Source: Gemmobacter nectariphilus
GTDB lineage: Bacteria > Pseudomonadota > Alphaproteobacteria > Rhodobacterales > Rhodobacteraceae
Direction: 5' to 3'
DNA length: 64,000 bases
Assembly: GCA_020721445.1 (NCBI GenBank)
Contig: DYMU01000013.1
Location: 1-64,000, forward strand
The position numbers were made by a program, and so were the translations under genes. Positions within the stretch are counted from its first letter, which is position 1. Each line of letters begins with the position of its first letter. The notes under the pieces are model-generated. The model did not search any database and was not told the DNA's origin. It saw only the letters and a list, made by a program, of their open reading frames with translations. Of the stretch, positions 32,982 to 49,752 are shown piece after piece.

Positions 32982-34940
32982 TCAATCCCCCGCTGCGCGG
33001 CCCTTGAGGGCGATGATGCCCCTTGGCCGGAACTGGATGAACAGGATGATGAAGAGGATCATGTAGGTCTGCGCGGCAAGGGTGTTCGAGGGGTTCAGAA
33101 ACTCGATCCCCTTTTGCAGGCCGCCGATCATTGCCGCCCCCGCCAGCGTGCCCCAGATGTTGCCGACGCCGCCGACCACCACGGTCATGAAGCTTTGCAC
33201 GATGTAGTCAGACCCCAGCTCGGAGGTGACCTTGGCGAACAGGCCGATGGCGATGCCGGCGATACCGGCGATGCCCGAGCCAAGCCCGAAGGTCAGCATG
33301 TTGATGCGGTCGGGATTGATGCCCATGCTGGCGGCCATCGAGGGGTTTTGCTGCACGGCGCGCACCTCAAGCCCCAGCCTTGTGCGCTGCATGATGAACA
33401 GGAAGACGACCAAAAACACCAGCGCGAGGACAAAGATCGCGATGCGGATATAGCTGACCTGAACCACATCGTTGAAGCTGAGCGCGCCATCCAGCCAGGC
33501 TGGCGAGGTCAGCGGGCGGGCCTGGGTGCCAAAGACGGTCTTGGCAAGCTGTTGCAGCGCGATCGAGATGCCGAAGGTGGCCAGCAGGGTTTCCAAGGGG
33601 CGCTTGTAAAGGTGACGGATCACCAGCCGTTCCATCGCCACCCCGGCAGCAAAGGTGACGGCAAAGGCCAAGGGCAAGGCCACGATCAGCGACAGGGTGT
33701 AGTTGGGGATGAACAGTTGCACCACATAGCCGGTATAGGCACCCAGCATGATGAATTCGCCATGCGCCATGTTGATCACCCGCATCACGCCAAAGGTGAT
33801 GGCAAGGCCGATGGCGGCCAGAAAGTAGATCGAGGCCAGCGACAGCGCATCAAGACCCAGATCGGCGGCCTGCATCAGGGCAAGTTTGGTTTCAATCGCC
33901 TTCAGCACGCGGGTGGCGGCGGTTGTCACAGCCGGGTCGGGTTCGCTGTAGACCTCGGCAAAGCGATGCGCGGCAACGGCTTGGGTCACCTCTTCATCGG
34001 TGGCGGCCAGCGGCACGCTGCCTGCGGCCTCCAGCGCGGTATAGGCGGCGTTGCGGGCGACTTGGGTGTTCAGGACAGCCACCGGCGTGCCCGCCACCTG
34101 ACCGTTCACGATATTGGCGACAAGGGCGGCCTTCAGGTCGGCGGGCGACAGCCGGGCGGGGGCCAGATTGGCGGCCACCAGCAGATCATAGGCCTCGCCC
34201 TGGGGCAGATCATCGCCGGGGGTCAGGTCGCGGGCGATATTGCCGTCAATCTGGGCCGCCAGCGGGGCGGTCTTGCGGACCGTGGCCAGCAGCGGGTTCA
34301 GGGCGGCGCGCAGGTCCAGCCCCAGATCGCCGGAAAAGCTGTCGATGGCCGCGACACGGGCGGCACTGTCGGGGTCAAACCGCAGGGTCAGCAGGCGGTT
34401 CAGGCGGTCTTTCTGCGCGGCCAGCGCCGGGTCTGCCTCACCGTCCAGTGACGCGCGCAGCGGGGCCAACAGCTCGGGGGCGGGATCGCGCGCGATGGTG
34501 GCCAGCGCCTCGGCGCGGCGGGCGGGGTCAGGGTCGGTCAGGCGAAACTGCACCAGCGCGACAGAGATCAGCCCGCGCACGCCGGAATTGGGGCGCAGTT
34601 CGGTGATCTCGGATTTGGTCGCCGTGCCGGCGTCAGAGCCATCCAGCGCTGTCAGCGCATAGCCATCGGCATTCGGCGCGATCAGAAAGAACCCGCCATC
34701 CGATTTGCGCTGACCCAGCCCCCTGTCGGCCCAGGCGGCCAGAATGGTTGCGGCTTGCGGATCGCCGCTGCCAGCCAGCGCCGCGATCACTGGGCCAATG
34801 GACTGGCGCGATGGTTTTTCCACCAGCGCGCGGTTTTCCACCAGAATCTCGGCCACCGATCTGGCGGCAGTCTGGGCGGCCAACATCGCAGGCACAAGCA
34901 TCAGAAACGCCGCGACAAGGGCGGCAACAAGAGCGCGCAT
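32982..34940 (-). CDS. urtB: Urea ABC transporter permease UrtB
   Basis: 652 aa. Signal-like N terminus (MRALVAALVAAFLMLVPAMLAAQ), then a roughly 330-residue helical periplasmic region (RSVAEILVENRALVEKPSRQ onward), then the LivH-type permease domain from about residue 380 (ITFGVMRVINMAHGEFIMLGAYTGYVVQ). The long N-terminal region is normal for proteobacterial UrtB. ATG at 34940 is chosen: starts further upstream lie in the tandem repeat and would encode repeat peptides (FPSLG/FPQPW). Between urtA and urtC in the operon. Confidence 0.93.
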   Translation of the reverse strand: MRALVAALVAAFLMLVPAMLAAQTAARSVAEILVENRALVEKPSRQSIGPVIAALAGSGDPQAATILAAWADRGLGQRKSDGGFFLIAPNADGYALTALDGSDAGTATKSEITELRPNSGVRGLISVALVQFRLTDPDPARRAEALATIARDPAPELLAPLRASLDGEADPALAAQKDRLNRLLTLRFDPDSAARVAAIDSFSGDLGLDLRAALNPLLATVRKTAPLAAQIDGNIARDLTPGDDLPQGEAYDLLVAANLAPARLSPADLKAALVANIVNGQVAGTPVAVLNTQVARNAAYTALEAAGSVPLAATDEEVTQAVAAHRFAEVYSEPDPAVTTAATRVLKAIETKLALMQAADLGLDALSLASIYFLAAIGLAITFGVMRVINMAHGEFIMLGAYTGYVVQLFIPNYTLSLIVALPLAFAVTFAAGVAMERLVIRHLYKRPLETLLATFGISIALQQLAKTVFGTQARPLTSPAWLDGALSFNDVVQVSYIRIAIFVLALVFLVVFLFIMQRTRLGLEVRAVQQNPSMAASMGINPDRINMLTFGLGSGIAGIAGIAIGLFAKVTSELGSDYIVQSFMTVVVGGVGNIWGTLAGAAMIGGLQKGIEFLNPSNTLAAQTYMILFIILFIQFRPRGIIALKGRAAGD

Positions 34941-34955
34941 GGGGCGGAAACCTGT

Positions 34956-35055
34956 CTGGGAAAAGCCAAGGCTGGGGAAAAGCCAAGGCTGGGGAAAAGC
35001 CAAGGCTGGGGAAAAGCCAAGGCTGGGGAAAAGCAAAGGCGGCGGAAAACAAAGG
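34956..35055. repeat. Six-copy 17-bp tandem repeat between urtA and urtB
   Basis: Unit CTGGGGAAAAGCCAAGG. Exact copies begin at 34972, 34989 and 35006; a 16-bp copy begins at 34956, a one-mismatch copy at 35023 and a decayed copy at 35040. It occupies nearly all of the 147-bp urtB-urtA gap. On the transcribed (minus) strand the unit reads CCTTGGCTTTTCCCCAG, giving repeated CCTTGG/pyrimidine runs in the leader of urtB. Confidence 0.95.
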
Positions 35056-35087
35056 CGGGGGACCGGTCAGCCCCCCGCCAATCGGTG

Positions 35088-36362
35088 TCAGTAGTTCGAC
35101 TTCATCTGTACACAAGTCTTGGTTTCGGTGTTGTACATGCCGCAACCCAAGGTCGCCCAATCCGACTCCAGCACCGCAGATTCGGGCAGGAAATCGGTCC
35201 AGGCGTCGCCGGGGACCGGCTCGGTCTGGCTGATGATGTCAAACTGGCCATCGGCCCGGATCTCGCCGATCAGCACCGGCTTGGTCAGGTGGTGGTTGGG
35301 CAGCATTTCGGCCATCGACCCGGTCAGGTTGGGGTATTTCTGCCCGATCATCGCTTTCGATACTGCGTCCACCTCGGTGGTGCCCGCGGCCGTCACCGCG
35401 TTGACCCACATGTTGAAGCCGATGACATGCGCCTCCATCGGGTCGTTGGTCACGCGGGCCTCACCCATGCGGGCCTTCCACTTGGCAATGAACTCGGCGT
35501 TTTCCGGCACATCGGCCGACTGGAAGTAGTTCCACGCCGCCAGATGGCCGACAAGGTTTGACGTATCCAGACCCGACAGTTCCTCTTCGCCAACCGAGAA
35601 GGCCACCACCGGAATGTCATCCGCCGACACGCCCGCCGCCGCCAGTTCCTTGTAAAAGCCGATGTTGGCATCGCCGTTGATGGTGGAAATCACCCCCACC
35701 TTCTTGCCATCGGCGCCCAAGGCCACCACGTCGGCCACGATCTTGGACCAGTCGCTGTGCCCGAACGGGGTGTAGTTCACGAAGATGTCTTCCTTCGCGA
35801 TGCCCTTCGACACCAGATAGCTTTCGAGGATGTTGTTCGTGGTGCGCGGATAGACATAGTCAGTGCCCAGCAGCGCAAACTTCTGCACGCCCAGTTCTTC
35901 CAGGAAATAGTCGGTGGCCGGAATCGCTTGCTGGTTCGGTGCCGCCCCGGTGTAGAACACGTTCTTCGAGCTTTCCTCGCCCTCATACTGCACCGGATAG
36001 AACAGCAACCCGTTCAATTCCTCGATCACCGGCAACACCGACTTGCGGCTGACAGATGTCCAGCAGCCGAACATCACATCGACCTTCGACACCGTCAGCA
36101 ATTCGCGGGCCTTTTCGGCGAACAGCGGCCAGTCCGACGCGGGGTCCACCACCACCGCCTCCAACTGCTTGCCCAAGAGCCCGCCCTTGGCGTTCTGCTC
36201 GTCGATCAGCATCAGCATGGTGTCTTTCAGCGTGGTTTCCGAAATCGCCATCGTGCCCGACAGCGAATGCAGAACGCCCACCTTGATCGTCTCTTGTGCC
36301 ATGGCCTGCCCTGCCGTGACGGCAAGGGCGGTGGCCAGCAAAGCTCCCTGAATATGTCGCAT
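35088..36362 (-). CDS. urtA: Urea ABC transporter substrate-binding protein UrtA
   Basis: 424 aa periplasmic binding protein with signal peptide MRHIQGALLATALAVTAGQAMA. Signatures ETIKVGVLHSLSGTMAISETTLKDTMLMLIDEQN and GCWTSVSRKSVLPVIEELNGLLFYPVQYEGEE are diagnostic of UrtA rather than amide or amino-acid binders. First gene of the urt operon; promoter in the 399-bp gap to its right. Confidence 0.97.
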   Translation of the reverse strand: MRHIQGALLATALAVTAGQAMAQETIKVGVLHSLSGTMAISETTLKDTMLMLIDEQNAKGGLLGKQLEAVVVDPASDWPLFAEKARELLTVSKVDVMFGCWTSVSRKSVLPVIEELNGLLFYPVQYEGEESSKNVFYTGAAPNQQAIPATDYFLEELGVQKFALLGTDYVYPRTTNNILESYLVSKGIAKEDIFVNYTPFGHSDWSKIVADVVALGADGKKVGVISTINGDANIGFYKELAAAGVSADDIPVVAFSVGEEELSGLDTSNLVGHLAAWNYFQSADVPENAEFIAKWKARMGEARVTNDPMEAHVIGFNMWVNAVTAAGTTEVDAVSKAMIGQKYPNLTGSMAEMLPNHHLTKPVLIGEIRADGQFDIISQTEPVPGDAWTDFLPESAVLESDWATLGCGMYNTETKTCVQMKSNY

Positions 36363-48023: not shown

Positions 48024-48053
48024 CACCAAAGCAATTAATGCACCAAAGCAATT
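48024..48053. repeat. Direct 13-bp duplication before a terminator
   Basis: CACCAAAGCAATT occurs at 48024-48036 and again at 48041-48053, 17-bp period, directly after the small exported protein gene and before its terminator. Looks like a recent tandem duplication. Confidence 0.8.
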
Positions 48054-48082
48054 GAAGGCCCCGGAGCGATCCGGGGCCTTCA
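48053..48082 (+). terminator. Bidirectional terminator
   Basis: TGAAGGCCCCGGA-GCGA-TCCGGGGCCTTCA, a 13-bp perfect stem with tetraloop between two convergent genes. Only short T-runs, but the stem resembles the cycA terminator (AGGCCCCGG/CCGGGGCCT). Confidence 0.85.
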
Positions 48083-49093
48083 GTCATGGGCCGAAAAGAC
48101 CACGGCCCGCGCCCGGCCCGCCCGTTTGGCCGCATAAAGCGCGTGATCGGCGTCTTGCGACATCTGCTCGGCCTCACAGGAAGGGTAGGTGGTTGACAGT
48201 GTCATGCCCACGCTGGCCCCGATCCGGCACACCTCACCCTCATAGGCGATCGGCTGTGACAGGCCGGCAATGATCCGTTCGGCCACCTGCGACAGGTGGT
48301 CGGGGTCGGTCACCCCCGCCAGCAAGATCACGAATTCATCACCCCCCACCCGCGCCACGGTATCCCCCGCTCGCATTTCGCGCGTCAGCACCCGTGCCAC
48401 ATGGCGCAGCACATGGTCGCCCGCCGCATGGCCAAGGCTGTCATTCACCGCCTTGAAGTAATCAAGATCCAGATGCATCAGCGCAAAGGCCCGGCGCCCG
48501 GCACAGGCGGCGGCCAGCGCTGCATCCAGCGCGCGCCGGTTGCGCAACCCGGTCAGCGTGTCGGTCAGCGCCTGTTCTTCGGCCGCGACCTTGGCGCCCT
48601 GCAAGGCCCGGTTCAGGCGCTGAAACTCTTCCAGAACCGCATGCTTGGCCTCCACCAGATACAGCATTTCCACCGCCAGATCGGTGGGCGCAAAGTCGGC
48701 GTCGGTCAGGGCGTGCTGGCGCACCGCATCGACCAGACCGATGCCGAACGACAGGTTCAGCACCAGCCCCGCCGCCGCATCGGCCAGCGCAAGACCGCGC
48801 AAACCAACATCTGTCCGCCCCCGCAAACACAGGTGAAGCCGCTGCCCCTGCCGCGCGAACAGATCGGCCGTCGACCCCATGCCGGCAGGGCTGCGCACGT
48901 CGAACAGATCTAAAAACCGGTGGCCCGTCAGCCGCTCGGGCCCGAAAATCTTGCCCAGCGTCGGCCCATGCGCCAGAATGGTGCCATCGCCCGACAGGTG
49001 CAGATACATCGGCATCAGCCGGTCCAGCACCCCGGCGGGCAGCATCAGGCAGCGATCGGGCGCAAGCGTCGGCAGGCCGGGGGCTGCGTGCAT
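48080..49093 (-). CDS. Diguanylate cyclase with HNOBA-like sensor domain
   Basis: 337 aa. Residues 20-150 form an HNOBA-type PAS-like domain (LDRLMPMYLHLSGDGTILAHGPTLGKIFG, LVLNLSFGIGLVDAVRQHALTDADFAPTDLAVEMLYLVEAK), a short coiled coil, then GGDEF (250-254, ARVGGDEFVILL). The product-inhibition I-site RxxD is intact (RAGD, 241-244, five residues before). Active c-di-GMP synthesis with feedback control is expected. Its ATG overlaps the stop of the H-NOX-like gene (ATGA), so the two proteins are probably a sensor-enzyme pair. Confidence 0.9.
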   Translation of the reverse strand: MHAAPGLPTLAPDRCLMLPAGVLDRLMPMYLHLSGDGTILAHGPTLGKIFGPERLTGHRFLDLFDVRSPAGMGSTADLFARQGQRLHLCLRGRTDVGLRGLALADAAAGLVLNLSFGIGLVDAVRQHALTDADFAPTDLAVEMLYLVEAKHAVLEEFQRLNRALQGAKVAAEEQALTDTLTGLRNRRALDAALAAACAGRRAFALMHLDLDYFKAVNDSLGHAAGDHVLRHVARVLTREMRAGDTVARVGGDEFVILLAGVTDPDHLSQVAERIIAGLSQPIAYEGEVCRIGASVGMTLSTTYPSCEAEQMSQDADHALYAAKRAGRARAVVFSAHD

Positions 49094-49752
49094 CACCGCC
49101 CCCCCCCGGCCACGCCCGCCGCAAGATCGAACGGCCGCCCTTCGGCATGCGCCGCATCCAGCAAAAGAATGGTGATTTCTTCGGTGCAGCCCCCCGTGGC
49201 GCAAACCCCCGTGGCGCAAACCCCCGCAGGACAGCCCCCCGCGGTGCAGTCTTCGGTCGTGGTCATGTCCAGCAAGACCAGCGCGCCATAATCATCGGCC
49301 ATCGCCCGCAACAGCCCCATCAGGATGCAGCCCGCCCCGGCAAACGGCACGTCGGTTTTCAGCCGGAACTCCCCGTCCTCCAGATCGGTCAGGCGCAGGC
49401 CTGGCAGCACAAGATCGGGCAAGGCCAGCCGGGCCCGCGCCGGCAGGTCTTCCAGCGAGTACAGAAAGTCGTGAAACGTCACCCCGCCAAAGCGCAACAA
49501 CCGCCGCAACCTTTCGCCTGCGGGCAACGAGATCAGCGCGGTCCCCACATCCTCAAGGATGCTGTCGCGCGGACGCTCCAACTCGCGGCAGGCCGCGGCA
49601 ATCACCGCCTCGGTCAAGGCCACGTCATAGGTCGACAGCGGCTCGAAACTCTCGAACGGCAGGCCCGCGCGGGCAGCGATGCGTCGCCATTGCGCCGCCC
49701 CGTGCCGCTGGCGCAAGACGTTCTCCAGCGCCCGGTTGATCAGCCCATGCAT
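49093..49752 (-). CDS. H-NOX-fold protein without heme ligands and with a cysteine ladder
   Basis: 219 aa. Start MHGLINRALENVLRQRHGAAQW and middle STYDVALTEAVIAAACRELE follow the H-NOX (HNOB) family. The proximal heme His, expected in LDDLHDHL, is Pro104 here (LEDLPARA), and the YxSxR heme-propionate motif is replaced (FRLKTDVPFAG). Near the end there is an insertion with cysteines every five residues (169, 174, 179, 184, 189). Heme binding is unlikely; metal or redox sensing by the cysteines is possible. ATG at 49752 has AAGGGAAAG upstream; coupled to the diguanylate cyclase. Confidence 0.82.
   Translation of the reverse strand: MHGLINRALENVLRQRHGAAQWRRIAARAGLPFESFEPLSTYDVALTEAVIAAACRELERPRDSILEDVGTALISLPAGERLRRLLRFGGVTFHDFLYSLEDLPARARLALPDLVLPGLRLTDLEDGEFRLKTDVPFAGAGCILMGLLRAMADDYGALVLLDMTTTEDCTAGGCPAGVCATGVCATGGCTEEITILLLDAAHAEGRPFDLAAGVAGGGR
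49186..49250. repeat. Four 15-nt repeats encoding the Cys ladder
   Basis: Unit CCCCCGTGGCGCAAA, exact at 49191-49205 and 49206-49220, diverged at 49221-49235 and 49236-49250. On the minus strand each unit encodes a five-residue CxxGx block. Expansion in units of 15 keeps the frame. Confidence 0.85.

Follow-up and report, generated by a model that had tools for sequence, protein, structure and literature searches.

The locus considered here raises the question of what an H-NOX protein may sense when the histidine that would ligate heme has been replaced and five evenly spaced cysteines stand in its last part. The protein is encoded in a window (the whole stretch of DNA analysed) of 64,000 nucleotides from Gemmobacter nectariphilus, by an open reading frame (hnox) with an ATG at 49752 and a TGA stop at 49093-49095 (Table 1). 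An earlier note on this DNA had described an H-NOX-fold protein that lost both hallmark heme features, gained a cysteine ladder from a 15-nt repeat and might be a metal or thiol sensor. The assignment to the H-NOX fold is borne out: Pfam HNOB (PF07700) matches residues 2-155 with 65.9 bits (cut-off 25.5), and the H-NOX proteins matched in the PDB include Nostoc Alr2278, at E 2.7e-13 with the single sequence as query and at E 4.1e-28 with a profile of 28 sequences. A search with the PF07700 profile found no second HNOB protein in the genome. The seven cysteines of the protein are residues 55, 142, 169, 174, 179, 184 and 189.

Table 1. Features of the hnox locus (window positions)
Feature	Position	Strand	Remarks
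H-NOX (HNOB) protein gene, hnox	49093..49752	minus	219 aa; Pro104 at the heme-histidine position
GGDEF protein gene, probable diguanylate cyclase	48080..49093	minus	337 aa; RVGGDEF and RAGD seen by eye
Cysteine ladder, codons C169 to C189 (C-x4-C, five Cys)	49186..49248	minus	predicted at the tip of the last beta hairpin (low-confidence model)
Four in-frame 15-nt units, 60 nt	49189..49248	minus	exact core 49191-49226
Terminator-like stem-loop, end of the two-gene unit	48053..48082	minus	consensus match only

Both heme features are indeed missing by sequence comparison. Pro104 aligns with the histidine of 'NLH' in the Nostoc H-NOX structure 4iah (phmmer alignment), and T133, V135 and F137 stand where YxSxR would be when its positions are transferred from that alignment without gaps; the protein thus lacks both the proximal histidine and the motif by which a heme-binding H-NOX is recognized. 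The setting for this loss is an alignment of 171 homologues, made up of 155 proteins from family and genus matches (mainly the better-scoring matches, from 142 of 287 matching genomes, plus 13 congeners) and 16 from one further genus, that of genome G260, which was looked up on account of the protein L115 and is over-sampled. Dropped before counting were L003 (same genome as L001, the sister protein described below), the fragments L031, L058 and L059, and L160, L161 and L162, which repeat loci already in the set; L030 was excluded from the tree. At the heme position the 171 proteins have Pro (133), Gln (17), His (8) or another residue (13), and among the 170 linked to a GGDEF gene His is found in 7 and a non-His residue in 163, the window protein included. 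The loss of the histidine is therefore group-wide, with Pro as the norm, and is not special to the window protein. The His state needs at least six changes on a FastTree tree of 170 proteins, Pro117 is invariant (171/171), and YxSxR (mapped without gaps) is intact in L030 alone. By the same ungapped mapping, 102 of the 171 homologues have Cys at the Tyr position of YxSxR, where the window protein has Thr133; a cysteine shared so widely in what was once the heme pocket may merit a look. A Paracoccus denitrificans copy from the plasmid collection (L179) also has Pro at the heme position, as judged by eye. As the missing heme histidine has been printed for P. denitrificans, along with R. sphaeroides (PMC5588039, of which, as of the other papers cited here, a part was available), the first half of the finding, the loss of the heme ligand in the diguanylate cyclase-linked group, is already known in the literature. 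Heme loss and cysteine gain, which the earlier note had presented as one package, come apart in this comparison: the first is shared by the group (7 of 170 retain His), and the ladder occurs in one genome only among those read. One genome (G248) holds a canonical His/YxSxR H-NOX (L185, by eye) together with a protein of the diguanylate cyclase-linked type (L190) and would allow the heme and non-heme forms to be compared within a single genome.

The hnox gene is followed by a GGDEF gene whose ATG shares one base with the hnox stop (TGATG). The partner protein matches PF00990 with 141.6 bits and has an intact GGDEF signature in translation, and is predicted from this domain and signature to be a probable diguanylate cyclase; its N-terminal part is weakly HNOBA-like (13 bits, E 0.071, below the cut-off). 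A GGDEF homologue lies downstream on the same strand, within the fetched stretch, at 170 of the 171 loci (the window locus included). L030, the one locus to depart from this, encodes a canonical H-NOX with an intact YxSxR, and no GGDEF homologue follows it within the stretch fetched. Because all 170 share this neighbour, hnox and its partner are the usual H-NOX/diguanylate cyclase pair of the family. Compared with the closest relative, the congeneric sister L001, hnox has a dN of 0.045 and a dS of 0.232 (dN/dS about 0.19) and the GGDEF gene a dN of 0.050 and a dS of 0.339 (dN/dS about 0.15). Both genes are under purifying selection, and thus the pair seems to function with the ladder present; a dN/dS near 0.2 rules out hnox as a decaying gene. 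The stem-loop at the end of the unit is one of 4 terminator-like structures in the scanned stretch, with 2.2 expected from shuffles. At 49099-49107, at the 3' end of hnox and directly before the TGATG overlap, nine C stand in a row (G on the coding strand), a possible slippage site that could affect the downstream start.

Similar pairs are described from related bacteria. The HnoX/DgcA pair of P. denitrificans (Pden_3719/Pden_3720; PMC5588039, in the part available) resembles that of the window in the missing axial histidine and the overlap with the GGDEF gene, but has no ladder and a very short hairpin tip (L179); the hnoX mutant underproduces biofilm, according to the same portion of that paper. 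In Dinoroseobacter shibae (H-NOX/Dgc1, Dshi_2815) and R. capsulatus (rcc02630/rcc02629), the available text likewise places H-NOX next to a c-di-GMP gene, and in D. shibae Dgc1 is reported there to be inhibited by NO-bound H-NOX (PMC7232146, PMC8846402). By orthology to the D. shibae and P. denitrificans systems, the hnox protein most likely regulates its diguanylate cyclase.

The ladder comprises Cys169, Cys174, Cys179, Cys184 and Cys189, encoded by the first codons of the four 15-nt units and the codon after the array, and the claim of the earlier note that five cysteines five residues apart derive from such a repeat is upheld by these four units. Chance spacing is ruled out, as no five-cysteine ladder arose in 200,000 residue shuffles. 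The units have a mean pairwise identity of 0.74, a value matched by none of 20,000 single-base shuffles; TRF reports the exact core with 2.4 copies at 100%, units 3 and 4 share 13 of their 15 bases, and units 1 and 2 are more diverged. Since it is the repeat that sets the even spacing of the ladder cysteines, this spacing is one event and not five coincidences. One cysteine codon in the diverged units differs by a silent change, and all five cysteines are retained despite the divergence, an outcome reached by chance in 0.21-0.31 of runs with 6-8 random substitutions (a rough estimate). At the loop the window protein is 20 residues (60 nt) longer than L001, with which it shares 183 of 199 aligned residues (92%) and which carries His where the last ladder cysteine aligns. 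Since the sister protein aligns on both flanks of the insert, the reading frame is fixed, and a wrong frame or strand is ruled out.

The ladder is private to the window lineage among the genomes read. The gene is present in 15 of 16 congeneric genomes (that of the window included), and alignment of these relatives, one of the checks the earlier note had put forward, found no ladder in L001, the closest congener, or in the 13 other congeners with the gene; a genus-conserved ladder is thereby ruled out. Because those 13 have short loops, an insertion in the window lineage is the simplest history. Strands are predicted at residues 158-168 and 190-198 in a model made from two sequences, which would place the ladder between them, at the tip of the last hairpin. 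Structure prediction, also proposed in the earlier note, returned the expected fold in that the best Foldseek matches are H-NOX, but at low confidence: the model, with two sequences as input, is poor (mean pLDDT 56.9, loop below 50), and those matches have a TM of about 0.35.

This hairpin tip is an insertion-tolerant site. The loop is 11 residues long in 127 of the 171 homologues and ranges from 6 to 103 in the others; it is hypervariable in length and composition in the genus of G260 (L163-L178 and L115), and one loop at the same tip (L119) exceeds 100 residues, with many Pro, Ala and Met as judged by eye. Of the loops, 138 have no cysteine and 27 a single one; a further loop has two, two loops have three each, another two have four, and the window protein stands alone with five. 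Three or more loop cysteines are found in five proteins (L002, which is the window protein, L017, L115, L166 and L167), a distribution that takes three or more changes on the tree. Cysteine makes up 4.3% of the residues in the 20 long loops, a figure biased upward by the inclusion of proteins that had drawn attention, compared with 1.4% in the remaining loops and 1.1% across the whole proteins; the enrichment hints that loop cysteine may be useful. The nearest counterpart of the ladder is in L017 (genome G020), which has its own C-x4-C-x4-C in the corresponding loop, directly preceding the equivalent strand, and a GGDEF neighbour; it differs from the window protein in having three cysteines, at 51% identity, and no exact repeat is seen by eye in its codons. 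Its nearest tree neighbour (L135) has no loop cysteine there, and the second-nearest (L110) has a single one near that place (GCEVIS); multiplication of cysteines may start from a Gly-Cys already in place. The earlier note had called the ladder unusual, and this stands for the five-cysteine form, found among the genomes read in that of the window only, but less so for cysteine-rich loops as such, given L017, L115, L166 and L167. A cysteine ladder in H-NOX is not named in the related literature searched. Relatives on plasmids amount to six records, none above 60% identity, and none were found in viral contigs.

The account that best fits these observations, held with moderate confidence, is that of a His-less H-NOX of the Rhodobacteraceae type that partners a diguanylate cyclase and has a slippage-made, likely dispensable, cysteine-rich hairpin. 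The protein, encoded in one-base overlap with the cyclase gene, would most likely bind and regulate that enzyme and thereby act in c-di-GMP control. Replication slippage of a 15-nt unit would have lengthened the tip of the last hairpin by 20 residues in the window lineage and multiplied one cysteine into the CX4 ladder, which would most likely be dispensable for the fold and for control of the partner and would at most add thiol reactivity or loose metal binding; a thiol or metal function of the ladder is possible. We infer both slippage as the cause of the insertion and the near-neutrality of its product. Four observations count against this account: the recurrence of cysteine-rich loops (5 of 171 proteins, at least three changes), the enrichment of cysteine in the long loops, the retention of all five cysteines in diverged units, and an association of Cys142 with loop cysteine (3/5 vs 30/166).

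A second reading, judged unlikely, is that the five cysteines bind a metal or pair into disulfides at the end of the hairpin and take the place of heme as the sensor input of the cyclase. Its model is the H-NOX of Vibrio and of Cc (presumably Caulobacter crescentus), which the available text describes as switched by cysteine oxidation at a zinc site (PMC7108781, PMC12329717). The H-NOX proteins of V. cholerae, S. oneidensis and Cc share with the window protein the fold and the placing of cysteines towards the end of the domain; they differ, as far as these partial sources go, in that the heme histidine is kept and the partner is a histidine kinase. The zinc ligands are given as Cys139/His161/Cys164/Cys172 (So) and Cys138/His160/Cys163/Cys171 (Cc) and lie partly in the ladder region by residue number, and Cys142 would lie near the So Cys139 position when counted from the heme site. 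Other cysteine-rich loops recur in the family, such as that of L166 (HCDTQGCTCPTGDRTC); the H-C...C...C loops of L166 and L167 look closer to a zinc site than the window ladder does. Five cysteine columns were compared with loop cysteine (uncorrected p values, with column 133 alone tested on the tree). Cys142, present in the window protein, is the relevant positive case (p 0.050, uncorrected and ignoring the tree). Column 14 is also positively associated (11/29 vs 22/142, p 0.009), column 11 negatively (3/47 vs 30/124, p 0.008) and column 55 not at all (p 1.0). Column 133 is positive by Fisher test (26/102 vs 7/69, p 0.017), but this co-occurrence is unsupported on the tree (median p 0.5, few informative pairs). 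The ligands of the Vibrio-type site are three Cys and one Gln or His, with no CX4 spacing in the portion of PMC7108781 available, whereas the window loop has no His or Gln beside its cysteines and a spacing unlike H-x2-C-x7-C. This comparison is by spacing and not by alignment, because no last-hairpin cysteines were seen by eye in seven of nine loci (eight from a class-wide search, which found HNOB in 10 of 240 genomes, and L030; L187 and L189 are left out of the seven) and hence no zinc-site sequence was available to align. Moreover, the 138 of 171 proteins that lack loop cysteine keep the family match and, except for L030, the GGDEF neighbour, and the cysteine retention among the repeat units is compatible with chance by the rough estimate above. 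The Vibrio analogy drawn in the earlier note is thus loose: a redox-active zinc-cysteine site does exist there, but in the same part of PMC7108781 the Vibrio protein binds heme, while purifiable without it, and its histidine is described as absolutely conserved in 598 compared sequences.

A third reading, considered quite improbable, is that heme is bound even without the proximal histidine and the H-NOX pocket serves to sense NO, with the ladder irrelevant. The invariance of Pro117 is in its favour, as is the listing of the cyclase-paired D. shibae H-NOX, a homologue of the R. capsulatus protein, as a heme-based NO sensor (PMC8846402 Table 4, PMC7232146, as available); by this analogy a missing histidine may not equal missing heme. 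The D. shibae protein is compared here by description and not by sequence. Against this reading, the window protein carries Pro in place of the ligand and lacks YxSxR. Finally, it is very unlikely that the repeat number reflects a mistake of assembly or sequencing: a short repeat in an assembly of 53 contigs speaks for it, but the array is only 60 nt long, its units are diverged and the frame is kept.

A second tandem array is present elsewhere in the window, with 6.2 copies of a 17-nt unit (94%) at 34958-35062; it is flanked by a substrate-binding-protein-like ORF (35088-36362, minus strand) and a long permease-like ORF (32982-35036, minus strand), both named by eye, and the listed TTG start of the latter falls inside the array.

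For the family, the question is what an H-NOX without its heme ligand senses beside a c-di-GMP enzyme, and the cysteine-rich hairpins offer a direct handle on it. A broader conjecture, rather unlikely at present, is that after the loss of the histidine the last hairpin became a repeated origin of cysteine clusters, so that expansion of a repeat would have made a redox or metal sensor out of a heme sensor; if true, 15-nt slippage would have provided a diguanylate cyclase with thiol or metal inputs that it had not had before, in convergence on the zinc site known from other H-NOX proteins. Should the hairpin cysteines matter, a sensor would have been rewired by a few repeat codons; otherwise the loop would be a tolerated insertion site, with the signal entering elsewhere.
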